This document shows, one piece after another, positions 6,146-51,420 of a DNA stretch of 64,000 nucleotides. The stretch's first letter is position 1, and every line of letters starts with the position of its first letter. Made by a program: the position numbers and the translations under genes. Source of the stretch: Galaxea fascicularis (Eukaryota > Cnidaria > Anthozoa > Scleractinia > Euphylliidae); the NCBI GenBank assembly GCA_948470475.1, contig OX419336.1, positions 14,350,979-14,414,978 of the forward strand, in the 5' to 3' direction. The notes under the pieces are model-generated. The model was not told the DNA's origin and made no database searches. It saw nothing but the letters and a program-made list of their open reading frames with translations.

Positions 6146-7166
6146 GAACAGCTCAAACTCATCTCCAGGACAAAGTGATACCAGTCAATCTGTTGAAGAG
6201 TTCGCAGAAAGCCTTGGACGTCTTACAATCACTGATGACCCCTTTCTGTCACCAGACACAATAAGCACAGCTTCCACTCAGAGTGATGAGCCCACACATG
6301 TGATCTTATCTGAGCTGCGCAAAAAGCTGAGTGAGTTCCTGGTAGCATGCAAACTTGGAGTGATTCTTCTGAGCGAACAAGACATCAGACAAGGAGAGCC
6401 ACAGAAATAGTAGCAACTGTGCTAAAGAGCGTCACCCCTGATAATGCTGGGGAACTCTGGCGACGTTTAGCCTCTTCCACAGCTATGAATAAGGCCCTAG
6501 GTGTAAGTGAGTTGTCACATTCAGAGCATTTGTATTTAGAGGCCCTACCAGAAACGTACCAGAATGCAACCAGCTGGGACACCCGTAGACAAGTGCTTTT
6601 GAGTATGGCAGGGGTCGGAACTTTCAACGACATTTCCCGTTATATCCCAGGGTTGACGAGATACAGATACTCCATGGCTAATCTTGATCGATCAAAGTTT
6701 GGCCGAGGCATTCAAGTTCCACAACAGCCTACCACACGAATACGAGTAGACTTGAGGCAGCTTGACCACGTTCTTGGTTTCATCAGGAGCCTGCATCTTG
6801 TTCAGGACCTTCCATTTGGGCAAAAACATCTCAAACTTTCGTCTGGTAAGGTTATTCAAGTACCTAATGTAATCCGTAAGATGATACCCAAGCGAGTGGT
6901 ACAACAGTACACTCAGTAATGTTTGGAGACCAACTTCAAACCATTCAGCTACTATGAGAAGGGTACTCTCTGAATGCAGTGCCTCTGTAAGAAAGTCACT
7001 GCAGGGCCTAGATTATTTTGCAGCTGAAGGTGCTCGTGTATTTGATGATCTTGTGGCCCTCGTACACCAAACAGGGGAATTAAATTCCAACAAGGAGTGG
7101 GAGACTACAGTTGTGCAAGCTCTTATGACAACCAAGCAGTATTTGAAGGGGCACTATAAGGTAATG
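6146..7166 (+). pseudogene. N-terminal conserved block of the C2H2 transposase-like gene
   Basis: The block begins after a TTACAG acceptor and ends at a GTAATG donor. Three frames must be joined to read it (breaks near 6390 and 6920), so it is not a single open frame. Visible conserved stretches include GELWRRLASST, YIPGLTRYRY, QDLPFGQKHLKLSSGK, NVIRKMIPKRVVQQY and a terminal VRKSLQGLDY helix. The same order occurs in the expanded family I recall. No catalytic residues can be assigned here. The region probably precedes the RNase H-like core. Confidence 0.6.
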
Positions 7167-7430
7167 TGAATTCTGACTCCAGAAAGACAGCATGAATAAA
7201 ACTAAAAATAAGTACTTATTTTACCTCATCAACAAAATCATTCAGTAAAAAAAAATTGTACTCTCTTTCTTCTCTAAATGGTGCACGTGTGTAACTAGCT
7301 TATATAAATTCTCGAGATTAACAATGCGCGCACGAGGTTAGTGGTCTTTTGTAAGGTTAAGGTTAAAAGTTATTCGCCCCGTCACGTTAATACTTTTTAG
7401 ATCAAAAAATCATTTGATTAACTATTATAT

Positions 7431-8390
7431 TTGAAGTATAAGCACAGACAAACAGTAATGTCAAAAAGTTTGTCTTGTCAACAGGTTCATGTCACTAGCC
7501 CCTCTAACGTAGCAGACCATTGTGTGTTGTTTGCACTTAGTGACAGTAGTGATGCAGATTACCAGCAACAATGCAGTCACCAACACACTGATCTTTGTGA
7601 CCGTTGTCAAAGTCTTCAGGAAACACTGGCAAAGATTGAACGGGTCCTTGGCGAGACGACCTTTCCAACTCAGGACGCGAAAGATGAAGCACTATTTATA
7701 TTCCAGACAGCCCAGCTAGCCATAGTGTCCTGGAAATGCCACATCCTGAGATCAGCTAACCAAGACCACGCGAGAATAGATGCACTGGAGAAACTTGACG
7801 ACAACACTGTCTTGATAATTAACGACTGGGCCATGAAGTTCCTTCCGCAAAAATACAGAGGGTCCCAAACCGACTCGTTTGGTAAGTGAGGTACTCCAGT
7901 CGCAGGGCTTTCTGTACATAGTCCAGTCGTGCAATCAAGGCAGTGCTGCAGTGGTTAAAATCATGCAGGATGTCCTAAATACCATCAAGCTGGAGTACAG
8001 TGAGATAATGCGCGATGTTATCATTTGTCGTCCACCATACTTTCATGCCCAGTGATATCCTCCTCCACTGGCATTGAAATCAAGCGCATTGACTTTTCTG
8101 ACCCACAGGGTGGAAAAGGTGCCGCAGACAGGCTCGTTGCAACCTGCAAGAATCACGTCAGGACCTCCATAAACAAAGGAAGTGACGTGACCAATGTTGA
8201 ACAACTGAAGAGTGCTCTTCTTTCGCATGGGAGGATAGAAGGAGTTTGCGTTGCTGTCATGCAAAGGGTTGAAGAGGATATTATTGGTATCAACAAATTA
8301 AACAATTTCGAGTTTAAAGACAAAATTCTCGAAGTTTGGCGCACTTATGGTATGGGAAAGGGAAAAGAGATCCCTTTGGAAACAACATAA
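7431..8390 (+). pseudogene. RNase H-like core remnant (DNARCYH ... GGKGAADR)
   Basis: A Cys/His-rich stretch (HQHTDLCDRC) precedes a helical part that ends in FLPQKYRGSQTDSFG. The family usually continues with a WHV-type strand, but here the reading frame is lost near 7888. About 8003 onward, DNARCYH followed by IDFSDPQGGKGAADR restores recognisable sequence. The D of DNARCYH fits a second catalytic Asp. The first Asp region is missing, so this copy should be catalytically dead. The open part 8025-8390 ends after a stretch that may contain the last acidic residue, but I cannot assign it. Confidence 0.55.
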
Positions 8391-8837
8391 GAAGGTTAGT
8401 CTTATGAAAACTCACAATTTCATTTTTTTTTTAGTATTATGTCATTGTGCCAATATATATTTTTTAAAGTTTGAGTAAAAGAGTGTACTTTTATTGTTTG
8501 TTATAGCCTTCAGACGCATGCAAGGCATCCATTTCCCGACCTGATATGCAGGAGGAGTGGGTGTCTGCCACCCCGTGGGGTTTTGCTTTGTAAAATACTT
8601 AAGCCTCTATAATTTTATAGCCCTTGATTTGTTCGACAAAATTTTTAAAACGAACATTGCAGAATATGGCGGTTCTGAAGAACATGTCCTCATGAGATGT
8701 AAAAAGCAAACGTTTCATCTGTTCGCGCAGTAAAGTGGACCAAAGGGGCACTCTTCACAGGCTGTGCAGAGTGAAGTCCTGAAGTAGTTGAACAGTGCTG
8801 TTTATGTAAATCTTGTTTCTTTATTTGTTATCTACCT

Positions 8838-9759
8838 CAGAGCATGGCAATAGTTGGCTTTCATCTGAGTTTTCTTCTGGAGACTTTAAATCCCTTAGCC
8901 CAAACCTGACTCAGTCAAGGAAGAAGAAAGAGATGGAAGTAGAGCAGGTTCATGATCCCACTGACCATACAAATGAATTGTCATCCGTGTTTACCTGCCC
9001 TCAGGATGGGTGTGTTAAGGTCTTTCAAAGGATGTCTTCTCTCGATAAACACCTATCTTTAGAAAAATGCACCAAGTATCTAGAGAAACGGTCTTTGTTA
9101 GACCTTGCCAAACTAGGCTACAAGTCCAGGTTGGAGGAGGGCACGACCAGTCAAGTTATTTTGTCTGCATCTTTTAGGGATACAAGAGAGGCTACATCTG
9201 GCAAAGTAGAGGTAAAAGAAGGATGGGTGCTCAAGCTGAGCAAAAAAGGATATCGCTTCAACCAAAACCAGAGGGATTATATAAATGTGAAGTTTACAAT
9301 TGGTCAAACCAGTGGCAGAAAACTGGATGGTGATATCGTATCATGTGAAATGAGACATGTACGAGGATCTGATGGAGTTCGCTTGTTCAAAGTATCCAAG
9401 TTTCTTACCCCGCAGAAGTGCACTTCATATTTCTCACATATTGCAGTGAAGGTCCGACTGGAAACATCCGACGATGCTGAAATCCAAGCTGTAGTAGAAG
9501 AGGAAAACTTTACCATGGCAAGAGAAACAATCCTATCCATCACGCTATAGAACCCCATCACTTACGATCACTACGATATCTGTGCCATGGCCAAGGGAGG
9601 ATCTCTGGAGTGACTTAAACTTGGAATGCTTCAAAACATTTGTCAGCAACTAGAATTAGAAGTATCTCCCAGGCCTGTTCGCTGCAAAGCGCTCTACGTT
9701 GACCTGCTGAAAAAAGCCACCAACAGTTGTACTTGCCAGCTCCGTGGGCAAAATATGTA
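8838..9759 (+). pseudogene. C-terminal C2H2 exon with two in-frame stops
   Basis: The exon follows an ACCTCAG acceptor. A C2H2 finger is clear: CPQDGCVKVFQRMSSLDKH with CTKYLEK after it, so the last metal ligand is Cys instead of His. A basic stretch and a block ending VRLFKVSKFLTPQKC follow. The first stop is at 9548. Translation in the same frame continues to look like the family's tail (LQNICQQLELEVSPRP, ALYVDLLKKATNSCTC) through a second stop near 9611 to a final stop near 9759. The true family C-terminus is therefore encoded but cut off by two nonsense codons. Confidence 0.65.
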
Positions 9760-16379: not shown

Positions 16380-17139
16380 CTAACGTCCTGGGGAGGAATG
16401 ATTATAGGCAATGCAGATTGAACGCCTACTAAGCAGGGTGAAGGGCACAAATGTCAGAACAGGTGAACCAGGAATCGAAGTGATTACCAAGACTGGAATG
16501 TTAAGCAGGTTGCTACATCCATAAACACAAAAGGAACTATTGAACCATCCAGATTCCGAAATCTCTTCAGTTCTATTTTGAACCCTGTTCATCTTTCACG
16601 TTAAAGTCCACAATAGAATTACACTTCTCGATATTTTTCTCAATTTCCTGGCAGAACAATGGGCGCAGCTGAAGTGTGTCGGTCTCAAATGTGTTTCCTA
16701 GTCCAATAGATTTCAAATGTCCAGCAAATTCCTCATTACCATCCTCACTGCAGACTAGTAACTTATCAAGTTCATTCACAATGCTTTAAAAACAGCAATC
16801 GCCATCCCCAGGGGCTTGGTCTAATTTAAGGCCAAATAAAGACAGGTGTCGTTGTAGGCAGTCACGATTCATTTCTGTAGAGAGTTCTTTGCTTTCAAAT
16901 TCCTTGTCTTCTGATGCTGTATTGCACCTTTGTCCACGGAAAATGTTGACCATTATTTTAACGTCAAAGAAAGGAAAGCTTAAAATGTCAAATGCTCTTG
17001 ATCTGCATTCCTTTTCAATTGATGTCAAAACATCATTCAAGTGAAGAACTCTGTTTGATGTATAGTTCAGCACCGTTTTTCTTTTCAGATCCTCAGCCTT
17101 GTCTCCAAAAAAGCAAAAATTCCACATGTGGAGATGATA
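16380..17139 (-). pseudogene. OTU protease part of copy 1
   Basis: OTU proteases remove ubiquitin or similar modifiers with a Cys-His-Asp site. The motif APGDGDCCF (D-G-D-C) is the OTU signature around the nucleophile Cys. The strand before the catalytic His is still readable as ICIAYNHSSPG, but the expected G-H-Y-D is lost, so this copy is probably inactive. A frame change occurs near 16785 and another near 16575. In copy 2 the matching site reads DSGHYDPI. Confidence 0.65.
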
Positions 17140-17515
17140 TGACGCGCCATAGCGGACAAAAATACTTGTGTCAATTTATATTGAACTTGTGCTCTTTAAG
17201 GATAACTTGTTGCTCCACATCTACAACTTGTTGTTACATCTAACTTTGAGCCAGACTCGTACAACATGTTTTCCAAATAGTGTACTTGTGTTTACGTTTG
17301 TGCTACATTAGTTAAAAACATATGCAACTTGTTTTCCAACATACAACTTGTTGTTGAAACCGTTTGAACTCGCATATAATTTTCGTAAAACTGATTTTAA
17401 AGATACAACTTGGCACCGAATACGTGTCTTATTATTAAATATTCACAACTTCTTTGACATTTATGACCAACTTGCTATCAATTGAAAGTTTGGCTTATCG
17501 ATTGATAGCACAACC
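17140..17515 (+). repeat. left terminal inverted repeat with CAACTTGT words
   Basis: The repeat matches the complement of 24779-25137 over nearly its whole length, with small gaps. A word close to ACAACTTGTTGT occurs about eight times at 30-60 bp spacing. Such clustered words are plausible transposase-binding sites. The HECT gene's first exon starts soon after, so the repeat probably carries its promoter. Confidence 0.85.
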
Positions 17516-17572
17516 CTCTCTTCGCACGCAGCAAAAATGGCAGACGATGGAAGGCAGTGAAGTGCCCAGCAG

Positions 17573-20500
17573 GTGTTAGAGATTCAGGTGTTAAGGACAT
17601 CGCATTCCCTTGATTTGCGTGAATCAAGCGTTGGCACCAATTCAACATTACCAGCGCAAACAAATTCGTCATCAATTATGTCAGTATCACAAGCGGTAGT
17701 AAGACTTTCATCTGTTGGCAGCACAGTAACCCGAACTGCTATAAGTGTGCCTCGTTCTGCAAAATCAAGGAAACAACAAAAGGACTTGAATTGCCGTAGG
17801 GAATCGGGCTTTTTCCTGTTATGCTACTACCAAGCCCTAGAATCATTAAAATTCCTCGTGGAAAGTTTAAGAGAAACCCTTCACCTGGAAGGGTATGCTG
17901 CCTCTGCAGTTGAGTTCGGATATGAGTGGTCAGAGCGAAAACTGCGAAGCGCCTTGGAGGCGGTGTATAAAAGCAAACTTGATGGTCTACCGGCGCCATT
18001 GTAAGTGCTTTATCTTGAAATAATTATAATTACACTTTAACAGGTGGTTGTACTCACGTAACAAGGCGGCTAGAAACAAAACAATGTGCTTGAGTTAAAT
18101 TCCCAAAGGAGAGATTGTTCATTGATTAGACCACCAACATGGCATGACACAAGGTGAAATTCATCTATAGGAGCTTATAGGCTTCTCTTATACTTTTCTT
18201 CACTGCCAAAAGTATTAGCTGTATGTTGAAGCTGAGACAAGCCAGGTGTGGACAAGGTAATTGTAATCACCTTGGGGGCCCAATGTCACAAAAGCAAAAA
18301 GCCCCTTTAACCTCTGAGCTCTTGTATTTTTAGTGAGTAATATTAAAATTATTTTAAGGATTTCATTGGTCTACCAAACTGCAGCTGCTTCAGCTTTGGT
18401 TTCATTCTGTTTTATTTCATGGTTTCACTTTGTTTGTGGTATAGGGGATAGACTGGTGCGTCCTACACTTCAGCCAAGCCAGGAGTTTTCAGCAAAGGTG
18501 GTAAAATTACTTGCAAAGCAAGGACCCATTTACATCAGGGCTGTCCAAGATCTTGATTCCTGGAAGGTACAGCACCCCCCTTATCAGTACTGTCAAAGGT
18601 GGGATAACATTCATTTATGACGTTTTATGCTCACCTCGATGATTTCTTTCCTGTGTGCAGTATATGACATTATACAATCCCTTCATCTTTTGGAAGATCT
18701 GTATTTTCAAAATACAGTTGGATATCAATTACAATACCCTTGGTATTCTCTTCTCCCAGTAGTGTGCATTTCAATTTGTCTCAATTTAGGTTTATGCAGA
18801 TTAATGGTTAGTATGATGTAGCACCTTCTTCTTCATACTGTATAAAGAACTTACTAGGCAAAAATCAGTGCAAGTCTGGCCTGGACCAAATCCTCCTTTT
18901 TTCTGACTTACAATGTTCCAAAATGCCAACTTTTGACTTACATGTATGTATTGTGTGTAATGCCAGAGATCAGCAAACTTTCACACATTTTTAGTCAAAG
19001 TAAATGAAGTACTTTTGTGTTATTTGCTGGCAAGAAAACATAAATATGTTTTACACAATTAAAGTAAAACAGGACTATAATTTGATCAGTGCAGCCTTGT
19101 CTTATTAGCCATTTCTGATTATTTAGGGCAGTCAGTACTCTTTTATAGTTATTTATAAACATAATTACGTACTGTAAAAAATGCAAAAATGAGTACAAAT
19201 AATTGTTGCTGTTGTAGATTGTACTTTAAAGAGTTTACATGTGTATTTTGCCATGTAGCAGCTATAGGTGCATTGTTTTGGACAACAGTCCTACCCTCAA
19301 ACCATTAATACAGTATCAATCACCCCACTGGCATAAGTCTAAACTAAAGGAAAGTAGATTGCTTTGAGATTAGTTAATTTAGGACAATGGCAATATTCAA
19401 CAGGAACTACTGATGAAGATGATGAAAAGCCTGATTTTCATAAGGTACATTGTCATTCTTGTGTATTTACAAAGTTAGCCTGCTACTCAGCAAAGCCTCC
19501 AAGCCTTCTTTACCCTGCACAATTAAGTACCATATTTTTTAGTCCATAACTCCCATTTAACATAAGGAAGGAAGGACATGTTACTCTATATAACTCATAG
19601 TTTTTTTATTACAAGTCGATTCTAAACAATTGATTCTGGATTTTGATGTGTGAAGACTTAGGTCTGGTATTTATTGATTGTGATTGACTAGGTGGATTTA
19701 GTAGCACACTCTTACAAGAGGAGATCATACCTAGTACTTAACGAATTTTGTTATTCCTTCTTTTAGAGACAGACAGAAGACAATCAGTTGGGGCTTAATT
19801 ACTTCATAGAAAGGTTGGTTAAAAGTACTATTACCATGAAGGCTTCTTGATTTTGAAGCTTATTATTTCCTGTTTTTATTTTCATCATGATGTTTTGTTT
19901 GAAGTGCTCTGTGTTTGTCTCCCTTAGTTTCTTACTCCCTCTTACATTCCTTCTTGCAGTGATGGAGAATCTGAACCACCCACTGGAATCAAGGTTAGGA
20001 AGATGTCAAGCACTTTAAATAGCTCCTCTCCTCAAGTGGAGTTGCCAATGCCTGGACCATCATCTGTTCTAACTGAAGGAAAAAAGCTGATTACACTGAT
20101 GGAAATGTTTCCCTCCCATAGTAGAGTTGCAAAACGCATGAAATATTCATGTCACTGTCGAAATGGCAGTCCTTGTCTTCAAATCTGGCAAATGACCCTC
20201 CAGATTTTGATACAGTTCTCTTGCAACCAGCATTCCTTCCTAGGGATCATGATGTAGTCACCCTACATAAAATAATTGAGCAAATTCAGAGGAATTTCAG
20301 CAGTGACAAAGAAAAAGTTAAAGTGGATGAAGACGATATCTTAAACGATGCTTTGGCGCTACTACAAAGACTCCAAATTTGATGCCAGGAAGAAATTGCG
20401 TGTTGTTTATAAAGGGCAGCCTGCAGCAGACACTGGTGGTGTAATATGCCAGTTTTATACCCAACTCCTGCAAGAGATGTCACAACAATTCTTTCAAGGT

Positions 20501-21840
20501 GACACTTTTAAAACGCCCATTTACAACTCCAATATGGTTGTCTCTGGTATCATGAAACTTGTTGGTACTGTGATAACCCACAGCATCCTTCAGGGTGGTC
20601 CTGGTTTCCCTGTATTCAGTCCATCTGTCTACCACTATCTAGCCACTGGTGATTTTGATGCTGCTGTGCAGAAAATTTCTGTGAATGACTGTACTGTTTC
20701 TACAAAACATTTCATTGACCAGGCAAGTATACTTGTAGTAACCTACACCCTCTGGCCCTTAGTGCAAAATAACAGATATATCCAATACATGGAAAGTTGC
20801 AAATGCTATTTTCTTCAATGTCTCTATATGAACAAAAAAGAAAACAATGCCAAAGAAATGGAAGTCTTGAAGTACACTTATAGAAGTATTTTTAAGAAGT
20901 CTGATGGACAGAATAATTGTCCTCTTTTGTGTATTTCCACAGATTGCAAACACAAGTGATATGTCAACTTTGGACACAGATGAAACCCTGAACTTTTTGT
21001 CTGAACGTGGTCAAAACGTGACAATGACTGTAAGTTTACTGTTATTCTATTTATTTGATCTTGTGACATATTATCATCAAAGCCAAACCGAACTAAGGAG
21101 GAAATGGTGAAATAAAATAGATATTCTATTCGGTCATTATGCTTATGTACTCTTTATTGGATATAATTTATTAAGCATTGTAAAATAAGCATCTCCATAT
21201 GGTATTTCAAAGATGGATTGTATCATTAACAAAAGAAACACCCAATTGATACCATCACAGCTAGCAATTTCCTAATACATCTCTATTTGCAGAATTAAAA
21301 CAAGACGATCGTTTTGCAAGGCATGATAGTGCATGATGTTCTGGGACGTCCCAAAATTGTGCTTGATCAAATCAGAGAGGGACTGCAAACATTAACATTT
21401 GTTTCAAAGACGAAACAGTACCCTGAGCTCTTCCAAGAACTGTTTGTCCCACACGACAAGGAATGCAGTCATAGTGATGTTATTAAAGTTTTAGAATTTC
21501 CGCAGACAATGACTGCAGATGAAACAACTATTCAGGGGTACCTAATAGAATTCTTGCAAACTCCATCAAAAGAAACTTTGGCCTAGGCAATATTGAAGTT
21601 AAGTTTGCCAATGTCACATCCATATTTGCTTCCACATGCCTCGTGGCCATAACCTTTCCTCGAGTGTTTCCCAACAAGGAAACGTTTTCATCTTCTATTG
21701 AGGCTGTTCTGACTTCTAAAACTAAGTCATTTAACTGTGTTGAAATGTGTATTCCATTTGATGTTGGCAGACTGCACTCTTACCTTGATATTGTTTTTGC
21801 AGCAGCTGTGACAATCTCAGTTTCTCCAGTTACTCAATAA
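17573..21840 (+). pseudogene. HECT-type E3 ubiquitin ligase gene carried by the transposon
   Basis: HECT ligases take ubiquitin from an E2 onto a catalytic Cys and pass it to a substrate. Exons with splice signals are about 17520-18000 (donor GTAAGT), 18445-18566, 19404-19444, 19767-19813, 19960-20722, 20943-21029 and 21293-21840. The intron after 20722 starts GCAAGT, a GC-AG type. The HECT N-lobe is clear: FDARKKLRVVYKGQPAADTGG, then FYTQLLQEMSQQFF and GPGFPVFSPSVYHYL. The C-lobe has the catalytic Cys in IFASTCLVAITFPRVF and ends FNCV. It resembles the G2E3-like HECT proteins expanded in fish and corals. Frameshifts near 20140, 20360 and 21595 and a stop at the start of the last exon break it. 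Confidence 0.75.
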
Positions 21841-23032
21841 CGTATCACGTTAAAAAATATTATTTTGGGAGGACAGGTGCATGTTTTGCGTTTGTATCTG
21901 TGTTGTCAGGAACAAGTGTCCTTTACATTGTAAATGAGGTTGCCAATAATTACTACTTGTCTAGTATAAGGTTATATTCCTCTAACATGTCAATATTCGT
22001 TTACTGATGTAGCTCTGATAACTACTCCCCGGTATTTGGAGTTCCTTCCGATTGGTTGTTGTTATTATGTTTATGTTTTTTTCCTGATCATGTGGAAGTG
22101 ATCATTATGGAAGTGCAATAAAGTGTTTAATGTTATCCACATCGTGTCAGGTGTTCTACTGAAAATTTCCTGTATTCACTCTGCTGAATCTTTCCTTACT
22201 GAAATGCAGGTTTTACAGGGGAAATTGATCAACCATGGTTTTGAGTCTGAAAGGGCTTGAAATCAAGCTTTTGGATAAAGGGTGAAAGAATGTGTTTACA
22301 ATTTCTGGGTTAGAGTGCTTTTCAATTGAGTGTAGTAAAACCAAATGCAAACCAATTACTTACCAATAAGACTACTCAGCTAATCTCAAACTGTAGTAAA
22401 ACCAAAGCCAAAACCACAGCAATTGTCTAATTACTTACTACACTCAACTTGAAAAGCGCTCAAACCAAAAACATTGACTCACACCTGCCATTACGGTGTG
22501 AGGATATCTGTAATTTACAGTTGCTATCATAAACAGAATGAACTCCCACATATATCAGGGTAAGGGTAGGTTGCAGTGATGAAGTCCTTTCCATTTTCCA
22601 TAACATCAATGCCGATGGATGCAGGACAGCTACATACATGTACATACATTTTATTGCAGCCCCCTCTGCAGGGACTGCTATCAATAACTTGTGATACCAA
22701 GACATTAAAGCACGCATAAGCAATCTAGCAAATTACATACATGTACGACTTTGAATGAGGGGGCTCAAAGTATAAGATAACAACTATGCTGAACCACATG
22801 AGCGCAGTTGCAAACTATTTCAGGAAGAATTTAACTATTTGGATCTTGAAGGGGGCAAAGGTGCAACAGTCTTGTAAATACATGACTGTTATTGGTGCAC
22901 AAAATTAACAATGACACCCACAGCTTGCAAGTACGAGTTAACCCCACTATTCTGGTCATCACTGAGAGGGTTTACAACCAGTGCCAGTGTAACATACTGT
23001 GAGGGAGAAAGTTCAATTCCTGACCGTGGGAC
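21841..23032. other. region between convergent genes of the 8-kb transposon
   Basis: Apart from the MITE at 22313-22461, I recognise no gene or repeat. It would contain the 3' UTRs of the HECT gene (from the left) and the transposase (from the right). Confidence 0.45.
22313..22461. mobile_element. short MITE
   Basis: The left end GAGTGCTTTTCAATTGAGTG and the right end (complement GAGCGCTTTTCAAGTTGAGT) are near-perfect inverted repeats around an interior with repeated AAAACCAAA. Nothing is encoded. It sits between the convergent HECT and transposase genes. I recall a longer version of this repeat from coral genomes. Confidence 0.65.
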
Positions 23033-24690
23033 TTAAATGTTGTTGTCTGTTTGTAACTCGGGCATCAGTGCAAGATCATCAATTCCATAGTCATCTGACA
23101 CAGTCTCTGTATCACTCAAATCAGAAGGACAGTTGTACAGACCTTCAATCATTAGCTGCAAGGGTGTTTGGCATCTCTCTGAAGATAAACCGTGGTGACT
23201 CCATTGAAAAACAAATTCCTCAATGCTTCTGTTGATCTTTGGTTGATAAACATAGTGCAGGGCAAACCGATGTAGCTCATTAAGTGGGTCAAGCAAGCCA
23301 AAGCTTTCTAAGTAAGTAAATATGTTTCTGCATGGTGTGACAATGAACCTCACGACATCAACCCATAGACGTTCAATACGTTGGGTATGTACAGAAAGGC
23401 CTCTTATCACATGAGACCCTTCAACTCCATGAGCATTAATTTTAACATAAAACGAGCCACTTCAATGTTCTCGGTGCCATGATCGCATCGCATTCTTGTA
23501 GGAAGGCCGAATGTTCTAACTGCTCCACGAAACAACTGAAGAACCGTTTCAGCTTTGTGGTTGGTGCTGCAGCAAAGAAATACAACTACTCTTGAAAATC
23601 CATCCAAAGCCCCATGTATGACAAACCTCCATCTGATGAGTTTGTGCTTACCGTCCTGATGCCTATAAATGAGCCAGGTACATGTAAGAAATGAATTGTC
23701 TTAATTGTAGTTTACATTATAAAATCAGGCTATCCTAAAACAAATTATGCTATGATTGTGGAATCACTGATGCTATACTATTTGAACACTAAATGAAGTT
23801 GGTCCCAATGTCTAGGGACAGATTTAAAGAAGTACTATCTTGTGTAAACTTCGCACCTCCTAACTCAGTCACTTGCTTGCCCATACTTCCCCTTACCCAC
23901 TCCTATGATAAGGGCATGGCATATCATGAGGTATCCTGGACAGATTTGAACAAAGAGATAAACTAATTGGTGGAATAACATCTCCCATTGGTAGCAGTTA
24001 ATTATAGATACACAAACATATAAAGGTACTTTCCTCTCTCTTACCATAGGGTATTTGGCTCTGTTACATTATAAACTCGCCTCTGGACTGTTCTAAAACG
24101 CAAAGCACAGCTGACCGGATCGACTCTGACAATAGACTCCTTTACTCTGTTTCTTTGAATGAGGAGACCTCGTCCTCTGAGAGCCCCTAACACCATTCGC
24201 TCACCAGAATTTGGTGACAGAGAGAGTATATTCCTGACAACAATGTCCAAGGTGTAGTCTAAAATTTGACTGAACTCCTGTCATAGGCCATCCTATTTCT
24301 TGACGCCGTTGTCGCTCCGAAACACAAAAGAAACTTGCAATTTTTCTCCATGTGAAACCCACGCTTCTGAGACCCCAAATTTGAAACACTGTAATCTTGT
24401 ACACCGGCCTTCCTTGTCTTCCATTCTGCACTGTTTTGCAAGTGTAACTTTGAGGCAATTCAAGACTGTCTCCTTCCAGTAGAAAATCTTATCATGCTTG
24501 AAAGTGAAAGACATTACTTTCCAAACGACTGATCAACTCTTGTATTTCCCGAGTTGAGGAAACTGTGAGGTTGTTCTGTTCAGCGAGCACTGATGCACAC
24601 ACTCGCAGTAAACCCACGAAGTCTTCCCCTCTCCTTGCAAAAAATCCACACATATCGATACTATCAGACAAATAATGGCATTCCATCTCC
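23033..24690 (-). pseudogene. integrase-like DDE transposase of the 8-kb transposon
   Basis: The order is an N-terminal helical part (CGFFARRGEDFVGLL), a Gly-Arg-Pro linker with an HTH-like stretch, a DNA-binding part (NSGERMVLGALRGRGL, RNRVKESIVRVDP) and an rve-like catalytic core. The triad reads D in IHGALDGFSR, D in MRCDHGTENIEV and E in HTQRIERLW, followed by FALHYVYQPKINRSIEEFV. One intron is well supported: a GTAAGA donor at 24044 and a TTATAG acceptor at 23663 join TG|G of a Trp codon. Frameshifts lie near 24290 and 23440. The catalytic residues survive, so the inactivation looks recent or partly due to sequence error. Confidence 0.8.
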
Positions 24691-24778
24691 CACAGTAACG
24701 ATGGCAGAGTAAAAATGACACTCTCAAGATCAGAAACAGTTTGAGCCGCAATTTTCTCAAAGAGAGCGCAAAGAATGA

Positions 24779-25137
24779 TGGGTTGTGCGATTAATCGATA
24801 GCAAGTTGTACATAAATATCAAAGAAGTTGTGAATATTTAATAGCAACACACATATCCGGTGCCAAGTTGTATCTCTAAAATCAGTTTTACGAAAATTAT
24901 ACAAAAGTTCAAACGGTTTTAACAAGTTGTGTGTTGGAAAACAAAGTTGTATATGTTTTAACTAAAGTAACACAAACGTAAACACAAGTACGCTATCTGG
25001 AAAACATGTTGTACAAGTCAGGCTCAAAGTTAGATGTATGCAACAACAAGTTGTACATGTGGAGCAACAAGTTATCCTTAAAGAGCACAAGTTCAACATA
25101 AATTGACACAAGTATTTTCGTCTGCTACGGTGCGCCA
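24779..25137 (-). repeat. right terminal inverted repeat with CAACTTGT words
   Basis: Mirror of the left repeat, with the same spaced words in the form ACAAGTTG. It lies just upstream of the minus-strand transposase gene. Confidence 0.85.
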
Positions 25138-26340
25138 TAAGATGATGACGAGACACTAATGTTATCTTTTGCAATTGCCATTGCTACAGGAACTTTTTCT
25201 GGCACACCGGTACTCTTGAATTTCTTGGTGGATTCATTAAAAATAGTAGCCATTCCTTCGCTTTGTTGAATCTCAATGGGCACAACAGGAATCACTCGAG
25301 CATTGGATCGATGTTTCTTATGATCTTGGGAAAATTGACAGTTCCATACGTACAAAACTACAGTGAATAATGCAATAGCAAGTTCAAGAAGGGATCTTTT
25401 AAGTTGCTTGTGTAGTCACTCATTTTTTTAGTGCCTTCTCCAAGGGGGATTTCTCAACAACAACCACTGCGAATGTGTTTCTTCATATTATATCTATGGC
25501 ATTCTTACTTTCATCAGACAGACAGTGTTCCCATTTCTTAACAAACATTTCCAAATTAGCTTCTATACTTTCCGAATCTGGAGTTTCCATTGTCTTAGCT
25601 GGTCCCACATCGTCATTTGCACGAAAAATGAGTCCAAATGCATTTAAAATTTGCTTTAAATGACAAGATCCCTTTGGCACAGTTCGGACAAAACGTTGAG
25701 GGGCATGGAAAAGATCCAGTTTCACTAGTGTAGCAAGGAGATGCAACACTGTCATAAAATTGTTCAGATCAATACTGTCTTTGTGGTTTCTGATACATGC
25801 TTCAAAATTCATTTACCCAATGTTTTCCAAAAGTTCCAAAGAGTTCTGTCCATGTCCAATATGGGTCACGACATAGTCAAGCAGATCTTTGGTACAAGTG
25901 GATCGGTAAAATAGCTTAATAGGAAACCTTTCCTTGATTGTCAGGGGCACAACGTTCAAGATTTCTGTAGATGCAGAGTAATATTCATGGCCAGGCGTTG
26001 TGTGGTTTGGGAGATTCTGATTGCACCTGCAGGTCGACTGAATTAAAATTATATTCCCTTGTAGGTCGTACACCAATCTTGGATTGCGTGGACTTTGTTG
26101 AGTTAATTTAGTGGTCCACGAATGAAATTCCAAGAGACACCTGTGGACGGGGCAAAGCACTAGAGTGTGATAATGTTGCAATGGGCACCACAGAAATATC
26201 TTTGAGATGCAAACATCAGCTTTGTCTGGATAAATGGAAAATTGTAAGTCAAGTATCTGGGATCCCATTTAAATTCGTCTATGACTTTGATCAAAATCGT
26301 TTCTTCTTCTCTACCGACAATGATCCCGTCAGTTGTCACA
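25138..26340 (-). pseudogene. N-terminal and DDE part of copy 1
   Basis: Reading toward lower coordinates gives FKWDPRYLTYNFPF, a Cys/His block (LVLCPVHRC, STCRCNQN) and RSTCTKDLLDYVVTHIG. About 300 bp for the first catalytic region is less clear. Then come LVKLDLFHAPQRFVRTVPKG and a basic helical part. The order matches copy 2. Several frames are needed to read it (for example a change near 25813 and one near 25440). Confidence 0.6.
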
Positions 26341-31996: not shown

Positions 31997-32401
31997 ATGC
32001 CTTCCGACTCCTGCATGCCTGAATGCAATAAAAGGTTACAAGGGCGAGAAAAACGAAAAGGTATATTTTAACTGTCTTACAGATGACAGTAGACGTAAGC
32101 AATGGCTGCATGCCATAAGAAGAGGGAAAGTACTTTCACAAAGACAAAGAAGAGAAAGGTATACTCTCGATTTTTTAAGCCAAACAATTTGAGAAAGTCG
32201 TTCAATGGAAGGATGTATGTAAAGGACAATGTTATGCCCTCGAAGTTCAACTGGTGTGCGGAATTGCAAAAAAGAAAAGCTCCAGTGTACGACTTCCCTT
32301 ACAAGCTACGGCAAAAACAAAAAAGCCATCAACCAGCGCTGTGGCATGCTGTTTTTCAGATTCAATGAATGAAAGTAAAACTGTTCAAAAGGCAGGTCGC
32401 G
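31997..32401 (+). pseudogene. N-terminal THAP domain of the transposase
   Basis: THAP domains are zinc-binding DNA-binding modules of transposases. The start MPSDSCMPECNKR gives the first Cys pair. A frame change near 32040 leads to KVYFNCLTDDSRRKQWLHAI, the THAP core with its Trp, and a second near 32130 leads to FFKPNNLRKSFNG and VMPSKFNW, the THAP end. The second Cys-x2-His pair is not clear. The gene is interrupted at 32402 and resumes at 43031. Confidence 0.6.
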
Positions 32402-34532
32402 TCTGTAGGTACCCGAGCACAGAATACGTCATCAAGCTCTAGATAAATTAATGCTATTTAACTACATAATTAATGCAAATCCGCGCCTCCTACTGCGGTC
32501 AACAACTACATAATTAACGTAAATCTGCGCTCCTACTACAGTGAACACCTATTGCTACATACATGAGCTGTCCACTACCCATACGTCTACAGGTCAACGA
32601 GTCCACAAGTCTACAGGTCCACCAGTCAACACCTCCTGCTACATACGTGATAGACATTCTGTCCACAACCCACAGGTCCACACCTCCTGCTACATACATG
32701 GTTGATTTTCTGTCCACAACCCACAACCCACACTTGTTACGATATACAATTTACACATTCTGTATACAACTCACAGGTTCACGTAAGTACATATTCACTG
32801 GATGATGGTGGCTTAATCATTAAGACGATTTGTTTATGGCCCTCAGTCCGTAGACTGCTGACAGCCGGGTTCTCTAAAGGTCACTTTGACTAGTGTTTAG
32901 TCATAGCGAATGCAAAAGGGTGGCATAATTCCTGCTGAATTTCGAGAGAAAAACGGTCTGCCAGCAGTCTATGCGGTAAAACTTGTTCTGTCTTTTGTTT
33001 CTTTTGTTTTAAGTCATTTGTGCTCCGGTACTTGCAGAGCGTACCTACAATTTACAATTCTATGGTAAGGTTCAAAGCAGTTTTTTTGGGGTGGTATTTC
33101 ATATAATAATTTATGGAAACATTGAAAAAGAAATTGTTTGTTAAAATAACCAATGCTGTGGTATCATCAGAAGAAATAAAAGAACGGAATACCGTAATGA
33201 TTCTTTTATGCGGCCTCTTTCAAATTAGCACCCCCTTTCGAATAAGCAACTGCTTCAAATGAGTTTATCAATAACCACCACTATTCTGATATTCTAATTT
33301 TACAGCACTGTCACAGTATGTATCGAAGGTTCATCGTCCTTAATTGCTCACGTATGTTATGTCGCATTACAAAACGAGTGGTCTTCCTCTGACGTTCTCA
33401 GCTATTTAAATATGTCCAGGTGAGCGCCCTGTCTTGAATAAGCGCCCTCCCTTAGGGTGTCAAAAGGAAATAAGTACCCCGGGTGCGAAATGGGTGCTAT
33501 GCTATGGGTGGGGTAAAAACTTTCGTAGCTCATTGGTGCTTGTTTGTTAGATATGATGAAAGCTTTAGCTGTTCGAGAGCAAGTTTGCTATTTCATAAAA
33601 GAAAAAGAACAAAATAAAATTACATTAACCCATTTAAGTCCAATGTGCCCCCATGTGACCCCATGCGCCCTGGCAGACCGACCTGCCTTCTGCCGCCTGT
33701 GACGCCATCAGTTTGAACGGTCAAGCGTAGTTTTGTTGACTAACGTGTTTATCATAGCGAGATCTTTGAAACCATACCAGATTGAGCATGATTCAGTCAA
33801 GGGGGGCCAAACAAAAAGGCAAAAAGCCAAGCCACATGAACGCAAAAATTCCTATAAAAATCTGCCCCCACCACCCACTTACCTTTCCTTTCATCAAATC
33901 CTAGGATCCTAAACGCTTTTCCAGAACCTTTTCCCACCAAAACAAAGCCCACTCAATACCCAGCAAAAGCCCAAAGAAAATGAGGCAAAAAGAACGGGAA
34001 AAGAGGGAAGAGGAGAAAGCGAAAAGCAAAAGTCAAGACTGCTGTGCCACTTTTCAACCCATCTCGAAATTTTGCTTTCTGCGCATGCCCGTACTCTGAA
34101 AGCTAATGTTTTGCATCTGGAGCAGAAGGCCGCGTAGTCCACGAACTGTCAACGGTTTTGTGGTGAGTTCTAGCTCCTAATTGCTAGATAGTGGCAAGAA
34201 AATGACTCGACTAGCTTGAAAACATGATTTTCGGCGAAAGTTCCAGATGCCAATGGGTTAATTCAAGCACAGCACAGCAGGTTTTTTTGTAATTCACTGT
34301 TTTTATAAGCTTAATGACAATAACTTTACGTAATGTAGCTACATTTCTTACTTCATATCAGAAAACTCAACAGACATTTACAAGAAGCAACATACGCTTC
34401 ACATAGCTTGTTACAGATCACTGTTCTAACAAAATCCAAACTTGTTGACCTTGAAAATGTATAACGGTAGTGTCTGCTAAACTGTAACCAAATCAAATTT
34501 AACATTTCATCATTTTGTTTCATAATCTATCA
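32402..34532 (+). repeat. left long inverted repeat arm
   Basis: Complementary to 41514-43030 over its length apart from the MITE. Near the tip, at 32540-32780, partial repeats of CTCCTGCTACATAC and CTGTCCACAACCCAC form an irregular minisatellite that also exists in the other arm with a different copy arrangement. Confidence 0.85.
33625..34261. mobile_element. TTAA-flanked MITE (piggyBac-like), 629 bp
   Basis: TTAA at 33625-33628 and 34258-34261 flanks an element that starts CCCATTTAAGTCCAATG and ends CCAATGGG. The other arm of the host element shows the empty site with a single TTAA in matching context. That is direct evidence of the insertion and of its target duplication. No coding capacity was seen. 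Confidence 0.95.
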
Positions 34533-35100
34533 GTTAATCAATTAATTAATTATAATTTATACACTGTCAGTTCACCTCAACCAAGTGCCCAGGTGCTTAC
34601 TTCAATTTTTATATTTTCCCTAATAATACAATGTATGTAGTAACAATATTATTTTTGAATGTTCATATTTCTTTAAGTTTCAATCAGATCGCCACAAAAC
34701 TATATCCTTAACATTAACGAACAACAAATTGACGTAATTTGCTGAATAAACCAATTTGAGATTAACTCTAGCCTTAACATGTATGGCCAGGTAGCAGCTC
34801 TTGGAAGGTCTTGCATAAATAGCTTGATACCCTTTCACAGAACAACGGAACAGACAACAGAAACAATGCCCCTAGCCCTAAAACAATAACAACTACTACA
34901 CTCAGGCGAATGACAAGCTTACAAGAGCTTGTAGATTTAGCCTAAATTTTTTGGCAAAATAGCTTAGTCATATGGAAACAAAAGCCACAAGTAATCATAA
35001 GAAAATGGTCCCAATGTTTTGCACATATACTACAAATAGTGTAAATCATGACATGTAGTATTGTTGGTCCAGACCATTTAACTTTTTCCTTTAAAATAAC
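34533..35100. other. no gene recognised
   Basis: AT-rich sequence between the left arm and the 3' end of the minus-strand DDE-OTU-CXC gene, presumably 3' UTR. Confidence 0.4.
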
Positions 35101-35397
35101 TTACAGATCATTTTCAGACAAATTCTTTGCAACCTGAATGAGGTAAAACTGCCTGAAAAGTACTGCTTGATCCTTAATAGATTCAATTTTTCTGGTTATT
35201 GACTTTTCTGTCTTATTGGAGATAGGAACATTGATTTCTTTGGCAGAATCAGCAGTGGACACTATGTTATTAAAGACTTTACATACATCAGAATCAGCTG
35301 CCTCTCCTAACCTTTCTATCAGCAGGTCTTCAATAACTTCAACAAGGATATGTTCCAGCTTTGTCCACTTTGGTTCCACAGGTCTTTCGTCGTTTCT

Positions 35398-35901
35398 TTA
35401 CATAAATTTCAAGCTGTTTGTCTCTACATTTTCTAGCACATGACTCTCATTTTGATCACAGTCTGGCCTTTTACCAATTGAATTGCAGCAGTTGTAGCAT
35501 CTACACAAGTTTGTGCATGCCTTGAAAGCCCTGTAGCAAGGGCATAGTGTTCGACGCTCTCCAGGTACCTGGAAACAGAATGCCTTTGAAGCACTGTTAA
35601 TTGAATCACCTTCAGGTTGTACTTTTCTTTTCTTTGCTGCTCCCCTTCCACAGGCACAGCCTTTGGTTTCTTCTTTCTGTGAACCAGGACTGCTTTCACT
35701 TGCATGTTTACAACTTTGGACAGGATCACGTCCAGTGTCGGTTGTATTCACCACTTCTACAATTGGGTCATAGTGTCCACTGTCCAAATGATTAAAGACA
35801 AGGTATAAAGTTTGATGGGTGCAAATCTTCTTAAAAGTGGAAATTGGGATACGAGGAAAGTTCTCCATTGATGTGAACAGGACCATGTTCACTCTCAACA
35901 C
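35398..35901 (-). pseudogene. OTU C-terminal strand and CXC-like Cys-rich domain of copy 2
   Basis: After the catalytic-His strand (HLDSGHYDPI) comes a basic Ser/Lys-rich linker (KGCACGRGAAKKRKV) and a Cys cluster CPCYRAFKACTNLCRCYNC. Its spacing resembles tesmin/TSO1 CXC zinc modules that bind DNA. The stretch ends at 35398 with a stop, and the next block resumes in another frame with EPKWTKLEHILVEVIEDLL. Confidence 0.65.
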
Positions 35902-36013
35902 GTTTGTGAACTACAAAGCCATTACATTGCCTATTTCCCCACTGTAAACACCAAGTTTCTTGAAGTTCTTCACTTGCTCTTCATATTCAACAACATCATT
36001 ACTGATATAACCC

Positions 36014-36520
36014 TCATAGGTTGCTGTGTTTTCTAATAGCTTGTATATCATTAAATTTCGCAAACCAGCCACAGCAATTTTGTGTTCCTGGTAGCAGAGT
36101 ATGAAATTCAATTGCTTGCAAATGACTAATAACCTCTGAATTCCCTGAAGATACCACCTGCTTCAGCTGAAAAATCACACTCGAAAATGAACAATCATCA
36201 TCAGGTGCAACCTGTATTCTGGTAAAGTTGTAGCTAGAAAGAACATTTTCAAGCTTACTGGCACTGTCACATGCAACATGGGATGACATACTTCCAAAAC
36301 CAAGCAATGCATAGGTTGCAATTAAATAGAAGTGATCAGAACTTACAGCACTATTCACAATTTCTGGTAAATTAGTTGTTAGAAAATATAGGTTGAGGGC
36401 ACGTGTAAATGCTTCATTCTCAATATCCTTCACATCACTAGCATGTTCTTCCTCACTTTCAGTAGTGCGTTCACCAGTTTCTAAGGTATCATCAAAAGCC
36501 CTTCCCATGATATCTTGCAT
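36014..36520 (-). pseudogene. OTU cysteine-protease domain of copy 2, first part
   Basis: The open stretch begins MQDIMGRAFDDTLETGE, with an acidic linker, then a helical region and VAPDDDCSFSSVIFQL. D-D-D-C-S-F fits the OTU nucleophile motif. The domain continues after a frame change near 36060 into GWFAKFNDIQ and, at 35901-35740, into LYLVFNHLDSGHYDPI with the catalytic His. Removal of ubiquitin-like modifiers is the family activity. Its use by a transposon is inference. Confidence 0.65.
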
Positions 36521-38407
36521 TTCACTTAAGGAATTACTCTACTGTTCATAAGCTGCACGAAGAAATGCCATACAATTGGTTCGCTCTTTTGAAATTCCAA
36601 TTCCAAATTTTTCTTTTATAAGGCTAGTTTGGCCATTCAAAAGCTCTGCTTTTCTAGAGGTTATAGGAGGCAACACCTTTGCCTTAGACCCTTTCTTCCT
36701 GGCAGCTTGTTTCTCATTCCACTTGTGCAGAAAGGATGTCAGAGGAGCTACTGCCAAAGCAACACCTACACGTTCTTTAGATGCCGCCTGTTGGAGGCAC
36801 TTATGTAAGTTTTCATTCCTCTCACTTCCACAGACCACTGGAATATAAGAAAGACAACCTTTATGGACATGTTTCTTAAGTTCTCAATTTCCTTTATTGC
36901 TGCTACTGTAAGTACTGCTTGATTCCCATGCGAGATATCTTTCCATGTTCTTAAAAACCTGTTTATGTTGTCAAGGATGAGCTGTGGTGAAGGCGTTGGT
37001 GAAGTACGTTTCTCTTCAGCATCTGATAGGTCACGAAAAACAAGCCTGAATGCTTCACAGCAGCGATAGGCAAAGGGGTGTCGTTTTGGTATACACTTCA
37101 CAACCCGCTGTACAGCATGGAACAAATCCAATTTCACTAACATTTCTGTACCAAAAACAACTTGCAATTTTCCCCTCCATGCACAAAAGTTATCAATAAT
37201 GCAAAGTTTTACATTGTTATGTTGCTCATGAAATCTGCCTCTTAAATCCTGAAGAAGATCTCTAACATTGTCAAATGCAGTTCCTTTGGTCAGTTGCCAT
37301 GCTAAGACTATCCATTTTCATTTAGAATACAGAACTTAAAATCATACTGCTTTTCCCATTTTTTGTCAGACTGATGCAGTAGTCCAATGTTAGCTGCAAC
37401 TTTAAAGGCGTGGTCACATGAAATCCAGGTTGCACCAGTTTGTGCCATGCACTGTGTGCAAAGCATTTCGTTTAGTTGATAATCATGAATTATACATTGA
37501 CAAATGAAATCATTACTGGGAACTTTCAGATCATCTGGCATTGCTTTAGGAAAATGTGAATTGGTGCTTCCATTTGAATTAATCTGTTGTGGCTGACAAC
37601 TGTTCATTTCGTTTTCGAACACCTCTCTCCTTTCCTCGAAATATTCGAGATGTTGTTGCCCGATTAGGCGCTCGATTTGTTCAATTTTCATTCCTCTGCT
37701 GCTATACAAAACGATATTCTTGTAAAGGTCGCGTGTTATTCCACTAACATGGCTTAGTAACAAGGACAACTGTTCCTGACAGGGGAAACATTAAAGGATG
37801 CAATTATCATGTGCCACTATTTCATGGTCATTACGGCATCTGTATACTCGACTAACCAAGTAAGTGACACCATTACGAGAAAACAACAGTCTAGGAGCAT
37901 TTCTGTCATTTCTTCCATCTTTCCAGTATGCAGGCCGAAGGCAAACTCCTGCAACATCGCATTGTGGGGAAGTCAAAAGCCCACTTTGTAGGGTTTGCTG
38001 TGAAACTGGATCCCGTAAAGAAAAGTATTGGGCTCAGATAATGGTATGGGTCTCCAAAACGAGAGTTCAAGCTCGACCCGAACCACAGTGGTGGAGGCTC
38101 CACAATAAAGGGTGGTATATCTCCAGCGACTTCCTTAAGTACATCCTGTATGTAACTGTAATGTTCTTCTTTGTGAGAGACACAGTCAACGATCTGCAAT
38201 GATCCATGGAGAACGATTAAGACGATTAATATTAAAAAAGGGAATGGCGGCCATCTTTGAAACTGACAAGCTTCATGCAACTCCCACTCATGCAACCACA
38301 TGTGCGTCGCGCAGTAGTGATGTGCTGTTCCCAGAGAGCAATGTGCAAGGCCTTCTATTATCTGATCTTTACCCTCACTCGAATGAGGTATTTTCCCACG
38401 CTCCGCG

Positions 38408-39113
38408 ATGGCTTCTCCACCAAAGAGTAAAATAGCCCAAGATGTAATCCTCAATGTCGCTAAGGAGGCCTCTAAAGTTGAAATGCCTTGGGCAGATGTA
38501 GCACCGTTTTTTGTCGAGTGGATTGAGGAATTTTCGTGAGCCCACAATGTGGTGAAGGAAATGATGTTTATGGCAATGCACCTGAGTATTGCTGCTCTAC
38601 TCGCATCTTCGTCAAGCCATCCCTGCAAGATCCATACAGCGAGAATTTCAGCCTTTTACCCTGTGCGTCTCCCCTCCATCGTCAGGTAAAAGTCAAGTGT
38701 TTAAGTACGGAGCGAAAATCCCCCTTTCCCACGTTGAGAATGTCAATGAAGGTGCCTGTATTTTGCTGGACAAGTTTACGGATGCTGTTCTAAGGAAGCA
38801 CCTTCTGAAGTATGCAGGACTAGCAGCGATTATCAAAGACGAGATGTATGATACTCTCCGGGCTATCATTGCCGAGAAGGAGGTAGGAACTCTTTGCCGC
38901 CTGTATGATGGTGACTCTCTAACCTCACACCTTGGGAACAATTCATTACATGTCAGCACTGAACAAACTTCTCTAGAGCTTGGAGGATTTATACAGGTAA
39001 CAAACTTTTTGTCCGAAGTTTATCCAGCCATGGTTTCTTCACAAAATGGATTTGACAAGCGTTTCCTTTATTCTGTTGTCAAGCCAAAGGCCATGACCAG
39101 AAAAGAAACAAAG
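38408..39113 (+). pseudogene. DUF3987-like P-loop protein gene
   Basis: The start MASPPKSKIAQDVIL leads to VEMPWADVAPFFVEWIEEFS, an in-frame TGA at 38537, then AHNVVKEMMFMAMHLSIAAL. After a frame change near 38620 come the P-loop-like SPPSSGKSQVFKYG, KDEMYDTL, GTLCRLYDGDS, LGGFIQVTNFL and GFDKRFLYSV, ending at an AAAG|GTAATA donor (39113/39114). The family is an uncharacterised ATPase-like one that I recall as repeated in cnidarians. It is divergent from the DDE-OTU gene in the same element, with which it may share a promoter (37991-38407). Later exons appear lost to retroelement insertions. Confidence 0.6.
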
Positions 39114-39327
39114 GTAATATTAAAAGAGACCGATCATTTATGTCCGCAAGAAGGGGGGGCCTGGGGGAAAAGGGGTCTTTAGGAGTGCACTTTTAAGGGT
39201 GTGATCTTTATGCTGCAGTCCCTTTATCAAGTTGTAGGGGAAGCCCAGGGTACAAGAGAGTAGAAATACAGCCATTGAGTTTAATACACTTTAATGGCGG
39301 AACCATATTTATAGTTATCAACTGGCT

Positions 39328-39660
39328 GTGATTATGTATAAAATCCATAATAATCTTTCCCCATTGTACCTGAAGCGGATTTTTACAACCACATCAACCA
39401 TACACACACGCAATCTTATCCATTATTGTAAACCGGATTGTTCTTCTTTTCACATGCCAGCTCATTTTGTCACCAACTCATTAGTACTTGTGTGTAATTT
39501 TCCTGCAATTACATAATCTCTAGACTTCATATCTATCACCTTTCCACATATTTAAGATCTTGTAACCGACTTAGTTTCAGCCAAGTATTTCTTAGGTTGC
39601 ACTGTGAACACTGAAGAAGCCCGAAGGGTGAAACGTTTGTTCCCTACATGAAATATGGAC
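39328..39660 (+). pseudogene. retroelement 3' fragment (LINE RT C-terminus-like)
   Basis: MYKIHNNLSPLYLKRIF and the residues after it resemble the C-terminal region of non-LTR reverse transcriptases. A downstream CTGAAGAAGCCCGAAGGGTG-AAACG word resembles retroelement 3' ends. Both borders are unclear. Confidence 0.4.
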
Positions 39661-39712
39661 CTGTGAGTGGTTTGCTTTTGACTTCATTTTTCATTCAACC
39701 TATATTTATATA

Positions 39713-39873
39713 TGTTACAGGTTAAATTTGATCTCAGGTGATTTTTGATTTAACCTAGATGAAAATGAAATTTCTTTATCTTCTCATGAATAATTAGGAT
39801 AAGGAGACAAAGGAATTTCATTTTGACCTAGGTTAAATAAAAAATAACCTGAGATTAATTTTAACCTGTAACA
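39713..39873. mobile_element. foldback MITE, 161 bp, in a (TA)n tract
   Basis: Arms of about 62 bp start TGTTACAGGTTAAATTTGAT and end with its near-complement. The flanks are TATATA on both sides, with a 20-bp (TA)n on the right, so the duplication length cannot be read. Confidence 0.85.
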
Positions 39874-39899
39874 TATATATATATATATATATATATTGG

Positions 39900-40735: not shown

Positions 40736-40740
40736 TATAT

Positions 40741-51412: not shown

Positions 51413-51420
51413 GCTTTATT

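Follow-up and report, generated by a model that had tools for sequence, protein, structure and literature searches.

A HECT ubiquitin-ligase gene recurrently paired with the integrase-like transposase of IS3EU/GingerRoot-type elements in a coral genome

Within a 64-kb stretch of Galaxea fascicularis DNA (the window) lies an element of 8 kb that is very probably a decayed copy of a two-gene type of IS3EU/GingerRoot DNA transposon, carrying a HECT E3 ubiquitin-ligase gene alongside its integrase-like DDE transposase. The same pair, mostly in convergent orientation, recurs at dozens of loci in the genome, which makes the ligase appear a standing component of such elements and no accident. Taken jointly, the identity of the element and the recurrence of the HECT-transposase pairing are close to certain.

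Borders and genes of the window element

The element and its ends were placed as follows.

17132..17137, no strand: left copy of the 6-bp target-site duplication AGATGA
17138..25139, no strand: complete IS3EU-type element, 8002 bp, termini TATGA..CCATA
17138..17483, + strand: terminal inverted repeat at the left end, in which ACAACTTG-type motifs recur
24793..25139, - strand: right terminal inverted repeat, with similar motifs at matching places
25140..25145, no strand: right copy of the 6-bp target-site duplication AGATGA

The two arms of the inverted repeat, each ~350 bp long, are 89% identical, and the AGATGA duplication is perfect and lies directly outside the element on both sides. Within the left repeat AACTTGT occurs five times, where mononucleotide shuffles lead one to expect 0.04, and the ACAACTTG-type motifs of the two repeats are plausible transposase-binding sites. 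The sequence-only reading had correctly recognized a real element with exact borders at 17138-25139, but had taken the flanking TA for the target duplication; TA instead forms the two outermost bases at either end of the element, inside AGATGA, and the perfect 6-bp duplication outside it refutes that view. The accompanying claim, that removal of the element restores the frame of the gene it interrupts, is not confirmed. Excision with the 6-bp duplication takes out 8008 bp, a number not divisible by 3, and leaves flanking frames that are offset by one; only a 2-bp reading, with 8000 bp removed, brings them into agreement, which chance would do in one case out of three. The frame question is not decided by seven related copies of the flanking gene, since their alignments begin only some 9-34 residues past the junction. 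The host gene itself spans 16786-17175 and 25125-26268 and has seven further matches in the genome at 30-36%; it includes a GDGDCCF stretch that we take to be reminiscent of an OTU protease, while Pfam gave no OTU protease match for 16786-17175.

The hallmarks of IS3EU elements are termini TA..TA and a duplication usually of 6 bp, as given in PMC10045372, and fungal IS3EU ends are described as TAYGG..CCRTA (PMC12730594). The window element has TA..TA termini (TATGA..CCATA), the other elements start with TATGA, TATGG, TACGG or TATAA, and a perfect 6-bp duplication outside TA is present in all nine elements with both ends read, in five of which (L043, L044, L045, L050 and L053) it had doubled as a search criterion. 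Repeat ends found by BLAST agree with the duplication-based ends within 0-8 nt. The fungal pattern is fitted at both ends by L042-L045 and L053, but not by L050, nor by L010 and L011, both of which have TATGA; in the window element the right end (TATGG) fits and the left end (TATGA) has one difference. The TA..TA termini and the 6-bp duplication place the window element in IS3EU/GingerRoot, and with its integrase-like DDE core also in agreement with the published descriptions, it is very probably a member of this superfamily. A Tc1/mariner-like element with a TA target duplication would explain TA at both ends and the agreement of the flanking frames once 8000 bp are removed, but deserves next to no credence given the perfect 6-bp duplications outside TA in 9/9 elements and a transposase of integrase type, whose significant Pfam matches are rva_4 and rve.

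Two genes lie between the repeats.

17537..18000, + strand: HECT exon 1, with an early in-frame stop; limits inferred from GT/AG
18452..18566, + strand: HECT exon 2, inferred
19767..19813, + strand: probable small HECT exon; a further exon near 19383 is uncertain
19960..20722, + strand: HECT exon with linker and N-lobe, two frame breaks
20943..21029, + strand: HECT exon located between the N-lobe and C-lobe pieces
21299..21840, + strand: HECT C-lobe, its cysteine (..FASTC..) aligned with the invariant one; one frame break, residues lost
24044..24686, - strand: transposase exon 1, N-terminal part with frame breaks; splice junction agrees with Montipora P0003
22892..23700, - strand: second transposase exon, encoding the DDE core (rva_4) and the C-terminus, with a frame break and a premature stop; compared with P0002

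As had been proposed, each gene starts near a repeat and reads inward: the HECT pieces on the + strand from the left repeat, between 17537 and 21840, and the transposase on the - strand from the right repeat, from 24686 to about 22892. GT/AG reading gives the HECT gene at least six exons, and both genes are broken by stops and frame breaks.

The initial protein search with the window HECT product returned a single match, P0001 from the sea anemone Actinostola. The window product aligns with P0001 at 46% identity over 370 residues (E=1e-114), in an alignment that spans the HECT domain without the CUE region. Pfam detects a HECT domain (PF00632, E=3.7e-8) and a CUE domain (E=9.2e-6) in P0001 and no HECT match in the joined window protein; a HECT HMM built only from public HECT proteins, P0001 included, matches the window exons at E=1.8e-24, 4.6e-12 and 0.0042. 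The AlphaFold model of P0001 has a mean pLDDT of 58 over the whole protein and mostly 58-93 in blocks of the HECT region, and this predicted region matches the HECT structures of WWP1, Nedd4 and HUWE1 (E from 1.9e-10), with moderate TM scores by target of mostly 0.35-0.60. Searched by sequence, the PDB gave four HECT chains for P0001, the best at a non-significant E=0.34, and no matches for the HECT of another element, L047. The viral collection gave no relatives of P0001 and none of the transposase alignment.

In the joined transposase pieces, Pfam finds an rva_4 integrase core at E=7.3e-69, and all three DDE residues are present; across 18 relatives the second D and the E, 34 residues further on, are invariant, and the first D is nearly so. 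The transposase is matched by 1110 proteins at E<=0.001, and among the best 120 of these the named ones are mostly from cnidarians, fish and mussels, the nearest named one of those listed being P0003 of Montipora foliosa (77% identity over 54% of the query). The related protein P0002 runs on beyond the premature stop of the window transposase. With the rva_4 core on one side and the 46% identity to P0001 on the other, the earlier description of a multi-exon HECT gene beside an integrase-like transposase in one transposon is borne out. In the bacterial-genome collection the transposase occurs in three short sponge-associated contigs, which gave no match to either HECT HMM; L003 contains a short stretch resembling the N-terminus of HECT, at a non-significant E=0.44.

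Other features share the window. A second large element at 32395-43037 has inverted repeats of about 2 kb (roughly 84-97% identical) around ~7 kb, and its open frames at 36769-37317, 37311-37790 and 37909-38655 have no Pfam match. At 50036-53957 a tyrosine recombinase (Phage_integrase, E=7.6e-7) follows long open frames on the same strand, a candidate that could be a DIRS-like retroelement. A YqaJ-like nuclease domain (E=9.5e-5) lies on the - strand at 44775-45959. Another rve integrase core, at 331-930 (E=8.4e-11), probably stems from a retroelement, and a tandem array with an 18-bp period occupies 1359-1739 inside a minus-strand open frame.

The HECT-transposase pair across the genome

The genome searched was the window's own (416.6 Mb in 170 contigs, with the window in contig C2), using three HECT queries (P0001, L044 HECT and L047 HECT) and two transposase queries (P0007 and L044 transposase). 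Matches were clustered into at least 77 HECT loci and at least 133 transposase loci. Those of P0007 (89 rows), L047 HECT (69 rows) and L044 transposase (106 rows) were entered in full; 18 of the 54 matches to P0001 fell in its N-terminal region (ending at or before residue 300) and were dropped from the HECT counts, and 10 of the 26 matches to L044 HECT were excluded, two at 100% being listed loci and eight lying on or beside listed places.

A HECT and a transposase locus lie within 6 kb of each other in 44 pairs, where an even spread of loci would give 0.29, although the pairs are not all independent, with L044/L045, L047/L050, L048/L049 and L042/L043 each being copies of one family. These pairs take in 41 of the 77 HECT loci and 44 of the 133 transposase loci; 40 are convergent, and the exceptions are four pairs with HECT and transposase on the same strand, all on contig C13, at 10.67-11.04 Mb. 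With the distance limit raised to 15 kb the pairs number 55 where 0.74 are expected, of which 49 are convergent, 4 same-strand and 2 divergent, with 49/77 HECT and 53/133 transposase loci paired. The locus lists miss real pairs, as L046 carries both genes on reading, yet is listed as unpaired.

At 80 of the 133 transposase loci there is no HECT match within 15 kb, some of the unpaired loci being masked, truncated or degenerate, and among 51 transposase clusters of at least 900 nt a convergent HECT lies within 15 kb in 32 and not in 19. Elements without HECT may exist. Four loci in two families (L047-L050), picked as strong transposase matches that had no HECT match at that stage, all proved to contain HECT (Pfam E from 9.3e-7 to 0.0032), with L048 and L049 passing the Pfam cut-off and L047 and L050 missing it. 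Eight of 60 unpaired transposase loci were drawn at random, and HECT was found in one of the eight stretches read (L055), four of the draw being masked to 41% (L051), 82% (L056), 61% (L057) and 79% N (L058). No HECT was seen in L052 and L054; for L051 a later list has a HECT match 14 kb away. L053 has no HECT; its fold-back element at 6194-8838 (2645 bp, duplication ATTCCC) consists of two 5' halves of the transposase, with arms 99.5% identical.

The 18 matches to the N-terminal part of P0001 alone, including C8:11586223, C7:16283359 and C4:23376642, are possibly further HECT-side genes with a HECT domain too divergent for detection. Six loci had been entered without a known transposase (L010, L011, L021, L023, L024 and L026); a HECT match was found in one, near L023 at C7:16283359 (E=2.2e-5), and the transposase HMM matched none of the six.

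Besides the window element, five elements were read from end to end, all with both genes in convergent orientation.

L042 with L059: 9685 bp, duplication TGTTAC, HECT and transposase
L043: 4762 bp, duplication ACATTA, HECT a C-lobe remnant only; interior without masked bases
L044: 4906 bp, duplication GACTCA, HECT and transposase
L045: 5245 bp, duplication CTAATG, HECT and transposase
L050: 7464 bp, duplication AAACTT, HECT and transposase

These elements (4.8-9.7 kb) have very different HECT sequences. For L050 an inner end candidate (AATATT, 7213 bp) has the higher end-identity score, and the outer ends were chosen because they coincide with the BLAST repeat ends. L047 belongs to the same family and is masked at its left edge, and L048 and L049 form another family with both genes present and no ends found. 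Open, intact-looking copies of both genes exist in the genome. At the DNA level L044 (1806-3164) and L045 (1805-3163) agree at 96-98% along most of their length; their HECT and transposase frames are open and their duplications perfect, and they probably represent a recently active family. The HECT domain of L044 is found by Pfam at E=1.2e-15, and its HECT side begins with a separate open frame for a zinc ribbon (Pfam 1.6e-4, below the cut-off); a similar, weaker zinc ribbon stands at the N-terminus of the L044 transposase (Pfam 0.068, below the cut-off). If these zinc ribbons are real, both L044 proteins may target the same DNA or partner.

The full repeat of the window element occurs at no other site in the genome. 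Two relatives share its repeat ends (4.9 and 2.3 kb, with 6-bp duplications GTTACC and AATGTC), and neither HECT nor transposase was seen in them. The sequence-only reading had held that copies with the same repeats and without HECT would speak for a chance capture; such copies do exist, but as they show no transposase either they look like non-autonomous derivatives, and do not refute HECT as a gene of the element.

Origin and role of the HECT gene

Distances among the families read reach 0.86 for HECT and 0.74 for the transposase. Across seven elements the two distance matrices correlate with r=0.83 (p=0.0016), a value driven by the near-identical L042 and L043, and without this duplicate family the correlation is weak (r=0.44, p=0.022). 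As far as sequence distances can tell, this favours, short of proving, co-inheritance of the two genes. Among these families the window element is nearest to L042 by HECT and to L047 by transposase, a mismatch that speaks for some mixing or saturation. The N-terminal stretch of the window HECT is weakly related to those of L047 (E=5.6e-6) and L048 (E=7.8e-5).

Different IS3EU lineages might instead have acquired HECT from the host several times, with no single two-gene ancestor. Sequence differences between HECT families reach about 86%, against 47-74% between their paired transposases, and the architectures differ as well, with CUE-HECT in P0001 and a separate zinc-ribbon open frame plus HECT elsewhere. 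The mismatch in nearest relatives, the weak correlation without the duplicate family and the four same-strand pairs on contig C13 point the same way. Repeated uptake is nonetheless unlikely, though it has to be reckoned with, given the same relative position and convergent orientation in 40/44 pairs, the N-terminal stretch common to the window gene, L047 and L048, weakly related as it is, and the seven-element correlation, driven as it is by one near-identical pair.

The ligase could also be a passenger with no role in transposition, retained by hitch-hiking. Many copies have decayed, and in one recent pair of open copies (L047/L050) dN/dS exceeds 1 in HECT (1 synonymous and 10 non-synonymous changes) as well as in the transposase (2 and 13), on these few changes, with no sign of purifying selection. 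For L048/L049, dN/dS is 0.26 in a 146-codon HECT piece and 0.56 in the transposase, again on few changes, and L044/L045 differ by two or three changes per gene. A mere passenger is improbable given what very different families retain: long open frames, near 450 and 400 aa, and a C-lobe cysteine kept in the window element and five other element families. In 17 aligned sequences the corresponding cysteine of P0001, C661, is invariant; from the HECT family motif we take it to be the catalytic one.

One transposon copy might have picked up a host HECT gene once, by chance. This would fit the restriction of the full window repeat to the window and the two relatives with the same ends that show neither gene, but is very improbable beside 44 pairs within 6 kb where 0.29 were expected, 40 of them convergent, and both genes in five other elements read end to end; the association, as the earlier reading had supposed, is more than that.

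The earlier reading had also tied the element to the G2E3-like genes of fish and corals, and at the protein level this tie finds support. The L044 HECT has at least 179 protein matches at E<=0.001, and among the best 120 listed, those named G2/M phase-specific E3 ubiquitin-protein ligase(-like), names that are similarity-based annotations, are 34-50% identical to it. They come from fish, corals and an acorn worm, under the names Acropora, Paramuricea, Oculina, Erpetoichthys, Ptychodera, Centropristis, Semicossyphus and Fundulus. P0141 of Montipora foliosa, the nearest named relative among the matches listed, is 83% identical over 56% of the L044 HECT. The separate N-terminal open frame of L044 is matched by P0235 of Centropristis (E=6e-18), P0236 of Semicossyphus (E=6e-14) and the uncharacterized P0237 of Siganus (E=4e-22), and the fish G2E3-like P0235 and P0236 thus have both the N-terminal domain and the HECT domain in common with L044. 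A bolder reading, which we consider less likely than not, makes HECT one of the founding genes of an IS3EU lineage in animals, where it would mark the stable transposase-DNA complex or a host silencer for removal, and derives the large G2E3-like families of fish, corals and their relatives mostly from copies and descendants of these transposon genes. If this is true, transposon genes seed host genomes with ubiquitin ligases. Recurrent transposon-borne HECT would account for the abundance of G2E3-like genes in some animals.

Intact relatives of the window element are predicted, with good probability, to encode an active ligase. Made by active relatives, this E3 enzyme would work in trans to the benefit of the element. 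Its candidate substrates are the strand-transfer complex of transposase and DNA, which would need disassembly after integration, and a host factor responsible for silencing the element or for blocking repair; these are the two likeliest, each on its own having at best somewhat less than an even chance. Integrase-type strand-transfer complexes are very stable, and disassembly of the Mu complex requires ClpX. This stability makes ubiquitin-driven disassembly an attractive role for the ligase. Through this pairing one can put to the test whether the ubiquitin system serves a DNA transposon in completing or safeguarding its own transposition.

Comparison with known systems

The integrases of Ginger1, Ginger2 and Polintons have an integrase-type catalytic core, as does the transposase here. 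Ginger1/2 elements make 4-bp duplications and have TG-type ends, unlike the window element. Transposons with deubiquitinase- or protease-like genes are known. Among the matches listed from a literature search with HECT or ligase names and transposon terms, none describes the pair in its title or the start of its abstract, and no paper with both IS3EU and HECT was found in the literature searched; a note in a Repbase-type database may exist. The sequence-only reading knew of no described superfamily with this pair. The superfamily is in fact a known one, IS3EU/GingerRoot, and what stands is that the HECT partner appears in no paper found: as far as the literature searched goes, the novel part is a recurrent HECT second gene within a known superfamily.

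The IS3EU/GingerRoot elements of PMC10045372 have the same TA..TA termini, 6-bp duplication and integrase-like DDE transposase; the words 'hect' and 'ubiquitin' are absent from the main text of that paper, and HECT as a second gene sets the window element apart from the elements it describes. The TET-bearing IS3EU elements of fungi, as PMC12730594 describes them, have an alpha-kinase gene opposite in orientation to the transposase. They share with the window element the superfamily, the 6-bp duplication and a second gene for a protein-modifying enzyme; of their TAYGG..CCRTA ends, the window element matches the right one and has one difference at the left. The fungal elements carry a kinase and a TET dioxygenase, whereas the window element carries a ubiquitin ligase and has an animal host; 'hect' and 'ubiquitin' are absent from the main text of this paper too (PMC12730594). 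Together, the HECT gene here and the kinase of the fungal elements hint at a repeated pairing, within this superfamily, of the transposase and an enzyme that modifies proteins.
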